A stretch of 64,000 nt of DNA, taken from positions 3,782,001 to 3,846,000 of the forward strand of contig NZ_CP034464.1 in assembly GCF_003955735.1 (NCBI RefSeq), written 5' to 3'. A program made the position numbers and the translations under genes. Positions 41,436 through 50,299 of the stretch are shown here, piece by piece (position 1 is the stretch's first letter; each line of letters opens with the position of its first letter). A model generated the notes under the pieces. That model had not been told where the DNA came from. It was given only the letters and a program-made list of their open reading frames with translations, and searched no databases. Origin of the DNA: Undibacterium parvum (lineage in GTDB: Bacteria; Pseudomonadota; Gammaproteobacteria; Burkholderiales; Burkholderiaceae_D).

Positions 41436-42359
41436 TTAATTTTCGCCGCCAACTTCTGGCTGTAGCGTGATGTGATCAATATTATGGGTCACGAGTAGCA
41501 TAGATTTCACGCTTTCCATGATGCGCGGCCATGCGCTGATGTCGTTGATTTCCAGATGCCCGATCAAGGCAGGATGGCCGGGCGACATCTCCCATATGTG
41601 TAAATCATGTACCGACAGTACGCCTGGTATGGCCTCGAGATCCTCGCCAATTTTGACATAGTCTATATGTTGTGGAACGCCTTCCATCAAGAAATGATAG
41701 GAGTCTGCCAGCACCCCAAAGGTGGACTTTAAAATCAATAATGAGACGAAGATAGACAGGATGGGGTCGACTTGCATCCAACCACTGAAGTAAATCACTG
41801 CGCCGGAAATGATCGCGGCAAGTGAACCGAGTAGGTCGCCCATCACATGGATTAGGGCGGCTTTGGTGTTGAGGCTATCTTTATCGTGTGAAAGTACCCA
41901 GGCTACTACGATGTTGATCGCCAGACCTATGCTGGCGACTAGCATGACGGTGCCACCTTGTACCGCCTGTGGGTGCGCTAAGCGCTGTACGGCTTCGTAA
42001 GAGATCCAGGCAATCACACCCAGCATAATTATGCCGTTGACGAAAGCGGCCAAAGCTTCCGCGCGACCGAAGCCAAAAGAGTTTTTTGCTGTGGGTGGTC
42101 GCTTTGCGATGGTCTGTGCCAGCAGGGCTAAGCCCAATGCGGCGGCGTCGGTCACCATGTGGCCGGCATCTGAAATCAGCGCCAGAGAATTTGACCAAAA
42201 TCCAAAAACGACTTCAACTACGGCAAAGCCCAGTGTCAGTATGAGTGCCCAAGCGAGTATGCTTTGACTACGATTCTCAAAATAGTGCTGATGCACGGCA
42301 TCACCTTGGCCGTGGGCGTGCAGGTGAGTGCTTTTTTCGGCTTGTGTTTTTGTTGGCAT
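41436..42359 (-). CDS. Cation diffusion facilitator family transporter (CzcD/ZitB type)
   Basis: This 307-residue inner-membrane metal/proton antiporter has six predicted membrane spans. It has a histidine-rich N-terminus (HLHAHGQGDAVHQH) and the metal site residues in LISDAGHMVTDA (span 2) and LIHVMGDLLGS (span 5), an HxxxD-type zinc site. A cytoplasmic C-terminal domain follows (GVLSVHDLHIWEMSPGH). Zinc export is the most likely role, though cobalt or cadmium cannot be excluded. Confidence 0.92.
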   Translation of the reverse strand: MPTKTQAEKSTHLHAHGQGDAVHQHYFENRSQSILAWALILTLGFAVVEVVFGFWSNSLALISDAGHMVTDAAALGLALLAQTIAKRPPTAKNSFGFGRAEALAAFVNGIIMLGVIAWISYEAVQRLAHPQAVQGGTVMLVASIGLAINIVVAWVLSHDKDSLNTKAALIHVMGDLLGSLAAIISGAVIYFSGWMQVDPILSIFVSLLILKSTFGVLADSYHFLMEGVPQHIDYVKIGEDLEAIPGVLSVHDLHIWEMSPGHPALIGHLEINDISAWPRIMESVKSMLLVTHNIDHITLQPEVGGEN

Positions 42360-42531
42360 GAGGGCGTTTCTTTAAAATTGGTGGCTTTGCAAATTGCGAT
42401 GGATGGGAGTGTAAATGATAGCTGCGAAGTTTGTGGAATACTCTGGGCGTTTCTGGCCTAAATAGCGGGGCGCAGGAAGACGTATTCTAAATGCTGAAAA
42501 ATCAGACGGAAACAAAAAAATTAGAAACGAC

Positions 42532-42560
42532 TTTACTATCTGGGCTTGGTTTGCTATAGT
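42532..42560 (+). promoter_or_regulatory. Promoter of tRNA-Val, probably also of the thrS operon
   Basis: TTTACT (42532-42537) and TATAGT (42555-42560) have a 17-base spacer, and the tRNA begins 12 bases after the -10. No terminator and no convincing promoter lies between the tRNA and the thrS leader peptide 45 bases further on. Confidence 0.6.
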
Positions 42561-42571
42561 GTTGGCTCTTC

Positions 42572-42648
42572 GGGCGGTTAGTTCAGCTGGTTAGAATACT
42601 TGGTCGACATCCAAGGGGTCGCAGATTCGAATTCTGCACCGCCCACCA
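42572..42648 (+). tRNA. tRNA-Val (anticodon GAC)
   Basis: The gene is 77 nt with an encoded CCA. The acceptor stem is GGGCGGT/ACCGCCC, the anticodon stem CTTGG/CCAAG encloses TCGACAT, and the T-loop is ATTCGAATT. It reads the codons GUC and GUU. Confidence 0.96.
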
Positions 42649-42692
42649 GAATTTAGGCAGTACCTTAGTTATATAAGAGCGAGAAAGGCATC

Positions 42693-42743
42693 ATGGTTAT
42701 GACACCGCGAACTACGATCACATTCCTTTGTGAGCGACGCTAG
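42693..42743 (+). CDS. Threonine-rich leader peptide of thrS (putative attenuator)
   Basis: This 16-residue frame, MVMTPRTTITFLCERR, has four threonine codons (ACA, ACT, ACG, ACA) within codons 4-10. It follows a good Shine-Dalgarno (GAAAGG) 5-6 bases before the ATG. An intrinsic terminator begins 32 bases after the stop, and the next gene is threonyl-tRNA synthetase. The frame therefore looks like a ribosome-mediated sensor of charged tRNA-Thr. GCUAG at the stop codon (42739-42743) is complementary to the terminator loop CUAGC (42785-42789). TCACA at 42718-42722 can pair locally with 42729-42733 or with 42771-42775. In E. coli, thrS is instead controlled by translational repression. Confidence 0.8.
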   Translation: MVMTPRTTITFLCERR

Positions 42744-42774
42744 TCGAGGTGTTTTTTCGTTTGTTGGTATTGTG

Positions 42775-42802
42775 AAAAACGCGGCTAGCCCGCGTTTTTT
42801 TT
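42775..42802 (+). terminator. Attenuator terminator upstream of thrS
   Basis: The stem ACGCGG/CCGCGT is extended by five A-U pairs, has loop CTAGC and is followed by eight T. A second copy of the right arm with its own T-run follows at 42806-42816 and could pair with the same left arm. Confidence 0.9.
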
Positions 42803-42861
42803 CGTCCGCGTTTTTTGTATTTGTTTAGATTTAATCACTCACCGATACACCATTACATAAT

Positions 42862-42876
42862 TCGGCAATCCTTGCC
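42862..42876 (+). promoter_or_regulatory. Small hairpin near the thrS ribosome binding site
   Basis: CGGCAA / TTGCCG with a three-base loop stands immediately before the GGAG Shine-Dalgarno of thrS. It may affect initiation. Confidence 0.35.
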
Positions 42877-42891
42877 GGCATGGAGATTAAG

Positions 42892-44799
42892 ATGATTTCA
42901 GTAAGATTGCCCGATGGTTCTCAACGTCAGTTTGATGAGCCTGTGACGGTGGCGCAGGTTGCCGCTAGTATTGGTGCTGGTTTGGCGAAAGCTGCTTTAG
43001 CTGGAAAAGTTGATGGTAAATTGGTTGATACCTCGTACCTTATCGCGGCGGATGCCGATTTGGCGATTATCACTGAAAAAGATGCGGATGGCCTGGAGGT
43101 TATACGCCACTCCACTGCACATTTGTTAGCGCATGCGGTGAAAGAGCTGTTCCCTGAGGCGCAAGTGACGATAGGGCCAGTCATCGAGAATGGGTTTTTC
43201 TATGACTTCTCGTATAAACGTCCGTTTACCCCTGAAGATTTGGTCATCATCGAAAAGAAAATGACCGAGTTGGCGAAAAAAGATGAGCAAGTTACCCGCA
43301 AGGTCTTGCCGCGCGATGAGGCGGTTGCCTATTTTAAATCGATAGGTGAAGCGTATAAGGCTGAGATTATTGAATCCATACCTGCGGATCAGGATGTCTC
43401 TTTATATACCGAGGGATCATTTACTGACTTGTGCCGCGGTCCGCATGTGCCATCGACTGGCAAACTAAAAGTCTTCAAGTTAATGAAGTTGGCTGGTGCC
43501 TACTGGCGCGGCGACTCCAAGAATGAAATGCTGCAACGCATTTACGGCACTGCGTTTGCGAAAAAAGAAGAGCAAGAAAATTATTTGCATATGCTGGAAG
43601 AGGCGGAGAAGCGCGATCACCGTAAATTAGGTAAAGCCTTGGACCTGTTTCATATGCAGGAGGAGGCGCCTGGTTTGGTGTTTTGGCACCCAAAAGGCTG
43701 GACTATCTGGCAGCAGGTTGAGCAATACATGCGTAAGGTGTATCAGGCTGGCGGTTATCAGGAAGTGAAAACGCCGCAGATTCTGGATCGTAGTTTGTGG
43801 GAAAAGACCGGGCATTGGGGTAATTACCGCGAAAATATGTTTGTGACCGAGTCAGAAACCCGCGTCTACGCGCTGAAGCCGATGAATTGCCCTGGTCACG
43901 TGCAGATTTTTAATACCGGTTTGCGCAGTTACCGCGAATTGCCTTTGCGCTTCGGTGAATTCGGCCAATGCCACCGCAATGAGACCTCGGGAGCCTTGCA
44001 TGGCATCATGCGGGTGCGCGGCTTTACCCAGGATGATGGACATATATTCTGTACGGATGAGCAAATTGCTGATGAGGTAACTTCCTTTCATCTTCAGGCA
44101 ATGAAGGTTTATGCCGATTTTGGTTTTGAAAATATTGCGATTAAGCTTGCCTTGCGTCCGGATAACCGGATTGGCTCTGATGAGGTTTGGGATAAGTCTG
44201 AGGATGCCTTGCGTTCGTCTTTGCGTCTATGCGGCGTGGCTTGGGAAGAGTTGCCGGGCGAGGGTGCGTTTTATGGTCCGAAGATTGAATATCATCTGAA
44301 AGATAGTCTGGGTCGTCAGTGGCAGGTCGGCACTATGCAGGTAGACTGGAATACTGCCGAGCGTCTTGATGGTACCTATATCGGCGAAGATAGCAGCAGA
44401 AAAACTCCAGTCATGTTGCATAGGGCTATCGTCGGCTCCATGGAGCGTTTCATAGGTATTTTGATAGAAAATTATGCGGGAGCCCTGCCTTTATGGTTGG
44501 CGCCAGTGCAAATTGCGGTCTTGAATATCTCGGAATCTCAGGCTGAATACACAGCACTTGTTGCAGAAAACCTGAGAAAACAAGGGTTTAGAGTGCACAT
44601 AGATTTGCGTAATGAGAAAATAACCTATAAAATACGCGAGCATTCAATACAAAAACTCCCTTATATCCTAGTTATTGGCGATAAGGAAAGAGATGCAAAC
44701 ACAGTGGCTGTGCGTACGCGTGGCAATCTAGATTTGGGTGTAATGACCCACGAAGCCTTGTTGGAACGTCTGAATAACGACGTGGCAAACAAAGTTTAA
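42892..44799 (+). CDS. thrS: Threonine-tRNA ligase
   Basis: ThrRS charges tRNA-Thr. The start at 42892 is chosen because GGAG (42882-42885) is correctly spaced before it, and [11 protein letters not shown] aligns with other ThrRS N-termini; the ATG at 42880 has no such site. Its 635 residues comprise a TGS domain (1-60), an editing domain with the [11 protein letters not shown] zinc motif, the class II core ([16 protein letters not shown]-like region, [14 protein letters not shown]) and an anticodon-binding domain at the end. It heads the translation operon and is preceded by a threonine leader-peptide attenuator. Confidence 0.97.
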
Positions 44800-44856: not shown

Positions 44857-45378
44857 ATAGCTACCGACAAGTCACATCGCATCAACGGTGAAATTACAGC
44901 GCTAGAAGTGCGCTTATCTGGCGTTGAGAACGAGCCTTTGGGCATCGTTAAACTGAGTGAAGCTCTTCGTCTATCAGAAGAATCGAATGTCGATTTGGTG
45001 GAGATCGCGCCGACTGCGCAGCCGCCTGTCTGTCGTTTGATGGATTACGGTAAGTTTAAATACCAAGAGCAAAAAAAGGCGCATGAAGCCAAGTTGAAGC
45101 AAAAAGTTATTCTGGTGAAGGAAGTGAAATTCCGTCCCGGCACTGATGATGGCGATTACAACATTAAGTTGCGTAATCTCACCAAATTCCTGGATGACGG
45201 CGATAAGACTAAAATTACCCTGCGTTTCCGTGGACGTGAAATGGCCCATCAAGATATCGGTATGCGTATGCTAGAACGTTTGAAGGCTGATCTTGAGCCT
45301 TACGGTCAGGTAGAGCAATTTCCTAAGATGGAGGGTCGTCAGATGGTGATGATTCTCTCTCCTAAGAAGAAGAAATAA
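44857..45378 (+). CDS. infC: Translation initiation factor IF-3, AUA start
   Basis: IF-3 binds the 30S subunit and checks start codons. The coding sequence is read from ATA at 44857-44859, placed 6 bases after GAAGGAA (44844-44850); this gives the family N-terminus [19 protein letters not shown] and 173 residues. A GTG at 44908 would remove the conserved RINGEI segment. The rest is typical ([42 protein letters not shown]). A rare AUA/AUU/AUC start makes infC sensitive to IF-3 itself, as in E. coli, where the start is AUU. Confidence 0.93.
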
Positions 45379-45527
45379 TTCAGAAGTAAATTCAGAATTT
45401 GAGAAAACTTCGTTGTAAAAAATAAAGTTTTCTTAATGGGTGATGAACTAGATTTCACACCCTCACTAAGTGAGAAGTAGGCATCCAAGTGCATCGTCAT
45501 TGTTGCCACCTACCATCATATAAAATT

Positions 45528-45553: not shown

Positions 45554-45751
45554 ATGCCAAAAATGAAAACAAAGAGCTCTGCTAAGAAGCGCTTTCGTGT
45601 ACGTCCAGGTGGAACGATCAAATGTGGTCACGCTTTCAAGCGTCACATTTTGACAAAAAAGACCACTAAAAATAAACGCCAATTGCGCGGTATCACGAAC
45701 GTTAATGCAGCTGACACAGTATCCGTCATGCGCATGATGCCAAACGCTTAA
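45554..45751 (+). CDS. rpmI: Ribosomal protein bL35
   Basis: This 65-residue basic protein of the large subunit begins [16 protein letters not shown] and ends SVMRMMPNA, both typical. It lies between infC and rplT as in most bacteria. In E. coli, L20 represses rpmI translation through a structured leader. The hairpin at 45532-45546 may have a related role here, though this is inference. Confidence 0.98.
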
Positions 45752-45779: not shown

Positions 45780-46139
45780 ATGCCTAGAGTAAAACGTGGG
45801 GTTACAGCTCGTGCCCGTCATAAGAAAGTTCTCGACTTAGCCAAAGGCTATCGTGGTCGTCGCAGTAAAGTATACCGTATTGCCAAGCAAGCAGTTATGC
45901 GCGCTGGTCAATATGCATACCGTGACCGTCGTAACAAAAAGCGTGTATTCCGCGCATTGTGGATTACCCGTATCAATGCAGCGTCACGTCAGCATGGCCT
46001 GACATACAGCGTATTCATGAATGGTCTGAAAAAAGCTTCTATCGAACTCGATCGTAAGGTCTTGGCTGATATGGCTGTGATGGACAAACCAGCATTTACT
46101 GCGATTGTAAATCAAGTCAAAGCTACACTGGCTGCTTAA
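45780..46139 (+). CDS. rplT: Ribosomal protein bL20
   Basis: This 119-residue, very basic protein starts [20 protein letters not shown], which is diagnostic of L20, an early 50S assembly protein and the known autoregulator of its operon. A strong Shine-Dalgarno (AAGGAG) precedes the ATG, and the gene is 28 bases from rpmI. Confidence 0.98.
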
Positions 46140-46185: not shown

Positions 46186-46223
46186 CGGGGCAGAGGTTGA
46201 TTCCTGTGCCCCGTTTTGTTTTT
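46186..46223 (+). terminator. Terminator or attenuator before pheS
   Basis: CGGGGCA (46186-46192) pairs with TGCCCCG (46207-46213), plus AGG/CCT inside one mismatch, and TTTTGTTTTT follows. It lies within the operon, so part of the transcription should stop before pheS. I see no Phe-rich leader frame in front of it. Confidence 0.65.
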
Positions 46224-46277: not shown

Positions 46278-47294
46278 ATGAATCCCTTAGATCATCTCGT
46301 AATTCAAGCGCGAGCAGACTTTTCTGCTGCCCAAGACGCCGCCGCTTTGGAAAATGCCAAAGCACTTTACCTTGGGAAAACTGGACAAATTACCGAGCAA
46401 ATGAAGCTCCTGGGTAAGCTTGCTCCAGATGAACGTAAAGCACAGGGAGCGATCATCAATGTCGTTAAAGAGCAAATTGAAAATGCTCTCAACGAATGCC
46501 GCGATGCTTTGGCAAATGCCCAAATGCAGACGCGACTCAATGCCGAAGCGATCGATGTTAGTTTGCCTGGACGTGGACGTGGCATGGGCGGCGTGCATCC
46601 GGTAATGCGTACTTGGCAGCGGGTGGAAGAGATTTTCCGATCTATCGGTTTTGCAGTGGCGGATGGCCCTGAAATCGAAAATGACTGGACCAATTTTACT
46701 GCTTTGAACAGCCCGGAGAATCATCCCGCTCGTTCCATGCAAGATACTTTTTATATAGAGGGCAATGATAGCTTCGGTAAGCCTTTGCTATTGCGTACCC
46801 ATACCAGCCCTATGCAGGTACGTTATGCGCGTATGCATCAACCTCCAATCAAGGTAATCGCACCCGGACGCACTTATCGCGTCGATAGCGATGCCACGCA
46901 CTCACCAATGTTTCATCAGGTTGAGGGCTTATGGATAGATGAAAATATTAGCTTCGCTGATTTGAAGGGCGTTTACCTTAATTTCGTAAAAGCTTTTTTT
47001 GAAACAGATGATTTGCAAGTGCGCTTCCGTCCGTCCTACTTTCCCTTCACGGAACCATCCGCCGAGATCGATATCGCTTTCGGCAGCGGTCCGCTAAAAG
47101 GCCGCTGGTTGGAGGTGTCAGGCTCTGGGCAAGTACATCCTTCAGTGATAAAAAATATGGGGCTAGACCCTGAAAAATATATAGGCTTTGCTTTTGGATC
47201 CGGCTTAGAGCGGCTCGCTATGTTGCGTTACGGGATCAGCGATTTACGTCTGTTCTACGAAGGTGATTTGCGTTTCTTGAAGCAATTTAACTAA
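46278..47294 (+). CDS. pheS: Phenylalanine-tRNA ligase alpha subunit
   Basis: PheS forms the catalytic core of the (alpha-beta)2 PheRS. The ATG at 46278 is chosen; the in-frame TTG at 46197 would extend across the terminator hairpin and is rejected. The protein has 338 residues, with an N-terminal coiled coil ([21 protein letters not shown]) and class II motifs: [36 protein letters not shown] and the final [18 protein letters not shown]. Confidence 0.97.
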
Positions 47295-47375: not shown

Positions 47376-49802
47376 ATGCAATTCTCTGAAAACTGGCTAC
47401 GCACCATGGTTGATCCGAAGATGACTTCGGATGAATTGGCACATCTTTTAACGATGTCTGGATTGGAAGTTGAGGAGGTCGAAGAAGTTGCGCCTCCCTT
47501 TAATAATGTGGTGGTCGCAGAAATTCGCGAAATAGTGAAACACCCCGATGCCGACCGACTCAATGTTTGCCAGGTTGATGTCGGCACCGGCACTTTGTTG
47601 AACATCGTTTGCGGAGCTCCGAATGTACGGGTCGGCATGAAGGTTCCTTGTGCCATGGCGGGCGCTATTTTGCCGCCGGGTGCAGATGGCAAACCATTTG
47701 AGATTAAGGTCGGAAAACTGCGTGGTGTTGAATCGCAAGGTATGTTGTGCTCGGCGCGTGAGCTGAAATTGTCGGAAGAAAATGCCGGACTGATGGATCT
47801 TCCCGAAGATGCTCAGGTGGGGCAAAATTTCCGAGATTACTATCAGTTAAATGACCTTAAGTTCACGATTAAACTTACTCCGAATAAGGCTGATTGCCTG
47901 TCTGTTCTAGGCGTGGCGCGTGAAGTGTCGGCCCTAACAGGGACGCCGATGACGTTGCCGGAAGCGCACATCGTTGCCGTCAGCTTGCAAGATAAATTGC
48001 CTGTGAAAATATCTGCACCTGACTTGTGCGGCCGCTTTAGCGGACGCATTATTCGCGGAGTCAATGCGAAAGCCCCGACTCCGGACTGGATGAAACGGCG
48101 CTTGGAGCGTAGTGGCCAGCGTCCAATCTCTGCATTGGTCGATATCTCCAATTATGTGATGTTGGAAATGGGCCGTCCTAGCCATGTTTTTGATCTGGAC
48201 AAAATACATGGAGGACTGGAAGTGCGCTGGGGTAAAAGCGGTGAGTCTTTGAAGCTGCTCAATGGAAATGCGGTTGCCGTTGATGAGTGGATAGGCGTGA
48301 TTTCGGATGATAAGGAAATCGAATCACTGGCTGGTATCATGGGCGGCGACTCGACTGCGGTGAGCCTTGATACTCAGAATATTTATTTGGAAGCCGCTTT
48401 CTGGTGGCCGCAAGCAATACAAGGGCGCGCACGACGTTTGAATTTCTCAACTGATGCCGCGCATCGCTTCGAACGCGGGGTTGATTTCGCGACTACGGTA
48501 GAGCATTTGGAACGTATCACTAGCCTTATCGTGGAAATCTGTGGCGGTGCTGCACATGTAAAAGTCGGGCCTATCGATGATCACATCGTGAATTTGCCAT
48601 TACGCCCTGCTGTAAATATGAGAACGGCACGCGCGGTTAAAGTCATCGGGGTTGCTCTGAGCGACAGCCAAATTGCAGACATCTTTACTCGGTTGGGGCT
48701 GCAATTTACTCAAGAACCAGGGCTGTTCTCGGTGACTCCGCCATCTTATCGCTTCGATATAGAAATTGAAGAAGATTTGATCGAGGAGGTAGTGCGTGTG
48801 TATGGCTTTGAAAATATCCCATCTTTGCCGCCAGTCGCCGCGAATGCAATGCTGATTGAGCCGGAAAATCGTCGTTCTTTATTTACACTGCGTAGACAAA
48901 TTGCTGATCTTGATTACCAAGAAGTGATTAATTACAGCTTCGTGGAAGAGTCTTGGGAAAAAGATTTTTGTGCAAATGAAGCGCCAATAAAACTACAGAA
49001 CCCTATTTCCAGTCAGATGTGTGTCATGCGCACGAGTTTGATTGGAAGTTTGGTGGCTAATGCTCGATATAATTTAAATCGTAAAATTGGACGCGTAAGA
49101 ATTTTTGAAATTGCTGCCGTTTATTTGAAAAACGCAAATATCCCAGACGGTCCTTTGACTGTTGCCGGATACGATCAGCCGAAGCGACTCGCGTCTTTAT
49201 CGTATGGTCCTTATGCTGAAGAGCAATGGGGCCAGCCTAGTCGTAACGTCGATTTCTTCGATGTCAAAGCCGACTTAGAGGCACTGTTTGCGCCGAAAAT
49301 ACTGAGGTTCGTGAAGACTCCGCACGTCGCCTTGCATCCAGGTCGTTCCGCTCAGATTGAATGCGATGGACAAATCGTTGGTCTGATAGGTGAGTTACAT
49401 CCTCGCTTACAGCAAAAATATGATTTACCTTTAGCACCCGTGGTATTTGAAGTTGATGTTGCATCTTTGCAGAATGTAGTAGTTCCGGTTTATCAGGAAA
49501 CGTCTAAGTTTCAAGCTGTTAGTCGCGATCTTGCATTGGTGGTGAAACAGACCGTCGCCGCGCAGGAATTGCAGGATATATTTGCTGCGGAGTTGCTGCA
49601 AAACGAGGTGTGCAAAATTGTGCAAGCTATTGTTTTGTTTGATGAATATCGTGGCAAGGGCTTGGAGTCGGATGAAAAAAGTCTTGCTTTCCGTTTTAGC
49701 TTACAAGATACTCAGAGTACGCTTCAGGATGATAAAATTGATGCCGCCATGGCCGCGCTGATACTTGCCGCCAATAATAAAATAGGCGCCAGATTGCGTT
49801 AA
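47376..49802 (+). CDS. pheT: Phenylalanine-tRNA ligase beta subunit
   Basis: PheT has 808 residues, in the normal range. It starts [16 protein letters not shown] and includes the EMAP-like tRNA-binding domain (about 40-150), the B3/B4 editing region, the B5 domain, a catalytic-like core and the C-terminal FDX-ACB domain ([18 protein letters not shown] to the end). It lies 81 bases after pheS and is transcribed with it. Confidence 0.97.
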
Positions 49803-49820: not shown

Positions 49821-49854
49821 GCAATGATCTGCACCCACATCTGTAGGTCATTGC
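49821..49854. promoter_or_regulatory. Hairpin between pheT and ihfA
   Basis: GCAATGATCTGCA (49821-49833) pairs with TGTAGGTCATTGC (49842-49854), 13 bp with two G-U pairs in RNA. No T-run follows. Its role is unknown. Confidence 0.45.
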
Positions 49855-49885: not shown

Positions 49886-50299
49886 ATGAATGATGTGACT
49901 TCCGCTGAACTTCAGTCGGTGCTGGATGCAGATTTAAATCGAGCAATGCGTGAAGCGAAAGTGCGCTCGCAGGCCGAGAAAGAATTGCCAACGCTGACTA
50001 AGGCAGAGTTGGCTGAGCTCCTTTTTGAGCAAGTTGGCTTAAATAAACGTGAAGCCAAAGATATGGTGGAAACGTTTTTTTGCGAAATACGCGATGCACT
50101 AGAACGTGGTGAGGCCGTAAAATTATCCGGCTTCGGAAATTTTCAGTTGCGCGACAAGACACAGCGTCCGGGCCGCAATCCGAAAACCGGCGAAGAGATT
50201 GCCATTACGGCACGTCGGGTGGTGACCTTCCATGCCAGTCAAAAATTAAAAGGTATGGTTGATGATGTTAGTAGTCGTCCTATCTCACAATCTGCCTGA
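49886..50299 (+). CDS. ihfA: Integration host factor alpha subunit
   Basis: IHF alpha is a DNA-bending protein that pairs with IhfB. The core [36 protein letters not shown] (residues about 37-72) and the DNA-wrapping arm [12 protein letters not shown] are present. The protein has 137 residues, with an extra N-terminal segment of about 35 residues rich in Ala, Glu and Arg ahead of the usual start. Such tails are common in Burkholderiales. The ATG at 49886 has AGGAAT upstream. It is followed after 8 bases by the merR gene. Confidence 0.95.

Follow-up and report, generated by a model that had tools for sequence, protein, structure and literature searches.

A probable threonine leader-peptide attenuator upstream of thrS in Undibacterium parvum and other Burkholderiales

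Comparative analysis of the DNA upstream of thrS in the window (the whole 64-kb stretch analysed here) suggests that thrS is probably controlled by a ribosome-mediated leader-peptide transcription attenuator that senses threonine supply. The preliminary description had proposed such a threonine leader for thrS, and the proposal gains support from conserved coding, a covarying terminator, pairing of leader strands with their own partners and an exclusive position before thrS. The frame, the selection for threonine, the terminator, the antiterminator and Shine-Dalgarno (SD)-side pairing and the position before thrS were each computed across the family of leaders. In the window, tRNA-Val (GAC) occupies 42572..42648 and is followed by the leader frame, an intrinsic terminator and thrS (42880..44799, a match to TIGR00418), which starts at the ATG at 42880 or at 42892, the latter with GGAG upstream. 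These features and those of the leader described below lie on the forward strand.

A 16-codon frame, MVMTPRTTITFLCERR, had been placed at 42693-42743 and is present there, the sequence reading ATG GTT ATG ACA CCG CGA ACT ACG ATC ACA TTC CTT TGT GAG CGA CGC TAG, with all four of the threonine codons named (ACA, ACT, ACG and ACA). The start at 42693 is in frame but seldom conserved: an ATG at the equivalent position, two codons earlier, is found in 23 of 106 distinct leaders, and relatives keep the second ATG, at 42699, which gives 14 codons. As judged from this conservation, the leader probably starts at 42699, two codons later than first given, and reads MTPRTTITFLCERR (42699..42743, with 42693 as an alternative in-frame start). 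Codon length is 10-16 in 111 of 113 leaders. The SD-like sequence GAGAAAGG (42681..42688), which had been called good, is present but of moderate strength; the leader ribosome site is purine-rich, and GAGAAAGG also falls within the 5' strand of the SD-side helix described below. SD-like 4-mers were discarded as evidence because the reversed control was equally high: they occur in 100/106 leaders, but likewise in 100/106 reversed upstream sequences (complement, 7), and are uninformative. A search of both strands of the 64 kb for short frames (8-18 codons) that have an SD-like site, contain four or more threonine codons and are followed by a terminator within 90 nt found only this frame, the two entries returned being nested starts of it, and there were no such frames in six two-base-block shuffles of the window. 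The fold of 42649-42822 is mildly unusual (z -1.87). The case for an attenuator rests on comparative evidence.

The terminator with eight T that had been described lies at 42775..42802, and thrS follows it as stated. The terminator has the form AAAAACGCGG-CTAGC-CCGCGTTTTT, with a 10-pair stem, the loop CTAGC and eight T. In a covariation analysis, 96.8% of cells were paired, 37 double changes were found and 0/500 shuffles were as good. A stock terminator scan missed the hairpin, probably because its stem extends into the A and T tracts, and a purpose-made scan detected it; since the stock scan misses a known hairpin, its silence elsewhere is weak evidence. The minimum-energy fold of the window's leader pairs the terminator arm with a second CCGCGTTTTTT copy at 42806-42816, downstream of the terminator.

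Within the genus, 36 genomes including that of the window were searched and thrS loci were fetched from 30. A frame with three or four threonine codons was kept in all 30 loci, and the terminator was kept too, so that the check on close relatives found neither of them lost. Among 80 named relatives, whose loci were kept by thrS similarity, 57 have the leader (61 rule matches minus four wrong ones, with L078 read by eye and L023 doubtful) and 23 do not. A pattern of 18 bases from the leader start, searched blind to thrS in 300 genomes of the order, had a single match in each of 35; the reversed pattern matched none of the 300, and thrS lay downstream of 30/30 fetched matches (the window's own included). 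A covariance model built from 50 leaders was used to search 399 genomes of the order, and thrS positions were located separately before they were compared with the model matches. All 77 best matches (E up to 2e-9, window's own excluded) lie 2-205 nt upstream of thrS on the same strand, 22 of them in genomes with a leader in the model and 55 in others. At E 0.01, 309 of the 399 genomes match the model; these were not counted as leaders because weak model matches are often ordinary terminators. No spread beyond the order was found in a sample of 274 genomes of the wider class, where seven had a match at 1e-7: three of these belong to the order, and tblastn, repeated with a positive control, found no thrS at the locus of the other four. 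When 24 further families of the order were inspected by eye, with one genome apiece, six had a clear leader (f3, f5, f6, f13, f22 and f23), three a possible one (f12, f15 and f19) and 15 to 18 none, the sequence of one locus (L219, f24) ending 54 nt before thrS. Other members of families f9, f19, f20 and f21 do carry the leader. In these samples the leader occurs across the order, and many lineages lack it.

The set of 113 leaders leaves out eight named loci, namely L131 (the window again), L129 and L130 (already in the set) and L029, L049, L053, L067 and L078 (wrong fallback matches), as well as loci whose frame had no stop in the first 25 codons or whose hairpin came ahead of the stop. L048, L069 and L023 were excluded from the later codon and pairing counts, and L068 also from the pairing tests on 57 representatives, which comprise 41 of an earlier 45 and 16 new ones. 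Some other loci were noted in passing. By eye, L049, L053, L058, L064, L079, L198 and L209 have a hairpin shortly before thrS with no recognised frame, placed after tRNA-Val or near a promoter-like box. L214 (genome G053) has a possible thrS leader before a terminator, SYSLLISETTNTRKL, with a GTG start and threonine codons outside any Arg-Thr core, and L210 (G049) has the frame MTGRTQV with CGA-ACA before thrS, where no terminator was seen and which is possibly a remnant. Genomes G154, G288 and G318 have a second ThrRS-like frame of 414-442 codons that matches residues 244-633 of the window's ThrRS at 47-49% identity and lacks the N-terminal part. One in-frame stop was flagged in the thrS match of each of G037, G087 and G421; these may be assembly errors.

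Codon counts indicate that threonine is selected codon by codon. Codon 5 is threonine in 87 of 88 distinct frames and codon 6 in 53 of 88 (ACG 23, ACC 12, ACA 11 and ACT 7). After codon 5, threonine accounts for 157/714 codons in frame (22%) compared with 7/626 (1%) and 52/626 (8%) in the shifted frames. Counting representatives only gave 60/328 versus 20/572 (Fisher p 2e-13), a value that is indicative, the sequences being related. Several divergent leaders have threonine runs, including MFRTTTTTGK, MQLNRTTTTS, MKHWRTTTTRYSHAS and MAFRTTTTGISTLA, and the 18 fetched divergent leaders without an MTP start have one to five threonines each. The number per leader ranges from one to six across the 106 distinct leaders, with four in 52, two in 19 and one in a single leader, and a further one-threonine leader was found in the family sample. 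These low-threonine leaders weaken a simple counting model. Of the 106 distinct leaders, 102 have an Arg-Thr core (CGA-ACT at 42708..42713 in the window), and 99 of these encode it as CGA-ACT or CGA-ACG. CGA makes up 3.5% of the arginine codons in thrS genes, and ACT 4.1% of the threonine codons in GC-rich loci. Pairing with GTTCG explains the near-invariant CGA-ACT in some lineages only, and it is otherwise unexplained. Two ideas were set aside on consideration alone: that TTCGAAC resembles a tRNA T-arm and that the invariant block is a promoter.

In the window, GCTAGTCG (42739..42746), which overlaps the leader stop codon, can pair with CGGCTAGC (42782..42789), which lies within the 5' arm and loop of the terminator. 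Because the register of this antiterminator differs between lineages, pairing was assessed by permuting partners. Over the 57 representatives, own partners paired at -13.63 kcal/mol versus -11.75 kcal/mol for swapped partners (z -6.2, 0/20000 permutations); the reversed-arm control was not flat (z -1.9, 634/20000). After stricter dereplication to n = 33, 19 and 9, z was -3.8, -4.0 and -2.2. Covariation in fixed columns was modest, the score being reached by 82/500 shuffles, the paired cells by 10 and the further pair types by 231, and the fixed-column model was rejected as too rigid, since the register moves between lineages. An antiterminator predicted to be exclusive with the terminator is thus supported family-wide and is stable to dereplication.

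A second helix is predicted between the strand running from -25 to the start codon (42676..42697 in the window) and the post-stop spacer (42743..42763), from duplex prediction and permutation tests. This SD-side (1:2) helix gave z -4.1 (0/20000), with a reversed control of z 0.1, and z -2.4, -2.9 and -2.6 after stricter dereplication to n = 33, 19 and 9. Near-perfect SD-side helices are found in the divergent leaders L187, L174 and L175. In the window's nearest group (nine representatives, thrS identity at least 79%) own partners were not preferred in the SD-side helix (z 0.3), and for the antiterminator z was only -2.0 (581/20000). In 49 of 57 leaders the antiterminator and the SD-side helix use some of the same bases, a degree of overlap being expected from the narrow search window. 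As a separate pairing strand, codons 2-6 were rejected: the signal was weak (z -1.5, 1464/20000; mean shuffle z -0.58, 27/42 below zero) and pairing was clear mainly where CGCGAAC meets GTTCGCG, as in L115, L117 and L075.

Transcripts truncated ahead of the terminator 3' arm were also folded with a ribosome masked at the threonine codons or at the stop. The mean probability that the terminator arm pairs upstream was 0.69 for a stalled ribosome, 0.51 for one at the stop and 0.49 for the free transcript, and the stalled value was higher than that at the stop in 48 of 57 leaders and than the free value in 49 of 57. The gain of stalled over free was 0.205, compared with 0.045 when the 5' part was shuffled (12 sets, highest 0.070); the gain over stop was less distinctive (0.184 versus 0.127 shuffled, highest 0.154). 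The window's own leader showed no switch in these folds (0.84 free, 0.85 stalled and 0.81 at stop), and in its full fold the SD strand is base-paired to the U-rich post-stop strand.

We infer that the frame is translated and propose the following mechanism for the attenuator. RNA polymerase, probably starting from the tRNA-Val promoter, would transcribe tRNA-Val and the leader, and a ribosome would initiate at the ATG at 42699. When charged tRNA-Thr is scarce, the ribosome would stall at threonine codons 5-8 and cover the SD-proximal strand; the strand that spans and follows the stop could then pair, as the antiterminator, with the 5' arm of the terminator, and thrS would be transcribed. When Thr-tRNA is plentiful, the ribosome would reach the stop and depart, and the SD-proximal strand could pair with the post-stop strand. 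The resulting SD-side helix would also hide the SD of the leader, the terminator would form and transcription would end before thrS. We further suggest, tentatively and as one possibility, that the device combines a one-shot sensor, a CGA-tuned stall and a terminator shared by tRNA-Val and the thrS leader. The post-stop strand, once transcribed, would hide the leader SD, so that only the first ribosome would read threonine on each transcript. The near-invariant rare arginine codon before the first sensing threonine codon could tune the stall, either by slow decoding or because CGA in the P site sensitises the ribosome to a hungry threonine codon. The same hairpin would serve as the 3' terminator of tRNA-Val, such that tRNA transcription would feed thrS.

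In an alternative arrangement, the hairpin is a mere tRNA-Val terminator, thrS has its own promoter downstream of the hairpin and the frame is incidental. Some loci are built as this would predict, with tRNA-Val and a hairpin but no frame before thrS in several lineages (L049, L198 and L209; by eye), and tRNA-Val is upstream in 81 of the 106 loci with enough sequence (not dereplicated). In 25 of the 106, however, no tRNA lies within 330 nt upstream (again not dereplicated) and the frame and terminator are still there; L021, L022 and L065 have a -10-like box near the leader instead (by eye) and keep both. Together with the threonine selection and the own-partner pairing, these loci make an incidental frame very unlikely, and the upstream tRNA-Val is common, yet no part of the device. 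The window itself has no promoter-like site between the terminator and thrS, the sole one predicted within 42350-42950 being that of tRNA-Val (TTTACT-17-TATAGT, 42532..42560, forward strand), a consensus match only, for which shuffles average 0.8. Because this is the only promoter-like site predicted upstream, co-transcription of tRNA-Val and the thrS leader in the window is likely. The mapped start listed for thrS in Cupriavidus metallidurans carries an RNA-gene tag, Rmet_R0015, in Table 2 of PMC9045368, which fits co-transcription with an upstream tRNA in that species and speaks against a separate origin of the thrS transcript.

The attenuator could also be translation-coupled and report how much translation or initiation the cell can sustain overall (ribosome traffic, the IF-3 level or translation stress, for instance), not threonine in particular. 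The SD is located in the competing helix, and initiation itself would therefore move the switch; infC, rpmI and rplT lie downstream of thrS, and leaders with one or two threonines exist. A general sensor would leave unaccounted for the position-by-position selection of threonine with all four of its codons used, the threonine runs in many (not all) leaders without an MTP start, and the finding that 77/77 best model matches precede the gene for the threonine enzyme; we consider it very unlikely.

It is also very unlikely that ThrRS binds the near-invariant block around the leader start and regulates its own leader, as at the thrS operator of E. coli: the nucleotide invariance of GTTATGACACCGCGAAC goes beyond the peptide requirement, as binding would predict, but divergent families lose the block and keep CGA-ACT, synonymous codons are used freely at position 6, which points to translation, and the element ends in a terminator, whereas the E. 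coli operator acts on translation. Autoregulation by E. coli ThrRS, the precedent for such binding, is known (noted in PMC2965389).

A comparison of the threonine attenuator with known systems gave no close match in Rfam, where no family was found at gathering and five weak matches, Thr_leader not among them, were obtained up to E 10; the T-box covariance model gave no match at gathering or up to E 10. T-box riboswitches also sense tRNA charging before synthetase genes in Firmicutes, but they read the tRNA directly. In E. coli, the gene cluster is likewise thrS-infC-rpmI-rplT-pheST-ihfA, and the pheST attenuator within it has the leader peptide PheM. That system shares leader-peptide attenuation of a synthetase gene in the same cluster with the one proposed here, but PheM precedes pheST and reads phenylalanine, whereas the present leader heads the cluster before thrS and reads threonine. 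The E. coli thrABC leader ThrL is alike in that threonine codons control an attenuator, and unlike in belonging to a biosynthetic operon. The E. coli thrS operator also places thrS under the tRNA-Thr system, but it is translational, acts by ThrRS binding and has no leader peptide.

Leader attenuators of other synthetase genes have been reported or predicted for trpS and leuS in Streptomyces, alongside pheST attenuation (passages of PMC1262725), for a hisS paralogue in Bacillus (a passage of PMC2965389) and for alaS, trpS, leuS and thrS in S. lividans (passages of PMC8079986). In the hisS, trpS, leuS and alaS leaders, too, a short frame containing the cognate amino acid precedes the synthetase gene; the amino acids and phyla are different. 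The nearest precedent is thrL of S. lividans, an 18-residue leader with two threonines that is a predicted attenuator of thrS in PMC8079986. It is similarly a short frame with threonine codons, but its peptide sequence is unrelated, its start is leaderless and it comes from another phylum; the passages of PMC8079986 on thrL describe one hairpin and no clear Rho-independent terminator, and give no comparative or structural support for it. The earlier statement that no description of such a leader was known thus has to yield to this prediction in S. lividans (PMC8079986) and holds for betaproteobacteria, for which no threonine leader at thrS was found among the matches listed in open-licence PMC papers. 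A threonine attenuator of thrS is, as far as searched, undescribed for betaproteobacteria, and the kind itself is known.

If the attenuator operates as proposed, many betaproteobacteria would have their own, apparently old, control of thrS, to be set alongside the operator of E. coli and the T-box. Its place in the gene cluster would differ from that of the phenylalanine leader which E. coli uses there. It would also provide comparative backing for threonine leaders at thrS, for which the one earlier prediction found is that in Streptomyces. Dozens of natural variants with one to six threonine codons and the unexplained CGA-ACT core are available, and this set could show the number and the neighbours of the control codons that an attenuator requires.

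The preliminary description had extended control by threonine supply to the whole translation operon, and this is doubtful. In the window, thrS is followed on the forward strand by infC (44857..45378), rpmI (45554..45751, named by eye from sequence and place), rplT (45780..46139), pheS (46278..47294), pheT (47376..49802) and ihfA (49886..50299, an open frame whose true start is probably further in). The pheS frame is open from the TTG at 46197, with a likely start at the ATG at 46278, and from 46197 on there is no stop in frame with pheS (the pheS frame alone being considered). Between pheT and ihfA lies a 13-pair terminator-like hairpin (49821-49854), and separate mapped starts are listed for infC, rpmI and ihfA of C. 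metallidurans in Table 2 of PMC9045368. A promoter-like site is also predicted before rpmI (45399-45428), although shuffled sequence yields such sites at least as often. Any effect of the leader beyond thrS would probably be uneven over the cluster. Two smaller features of the cluster were noted. In 44857-44907, the ATA at 44857 is a possible infC start, 17 codons before the first in-frame GTG at 44908, with a purine-rich stretch upstream; E. coli IF-3 likewise uses a non-standard start codon. The gap between infC and rpmI contains an inverted repeat, GAGAAAACTT / AAGTTTTCTT (45400-45436), which has no T-run and is possibly a ribosomal-protein control site.
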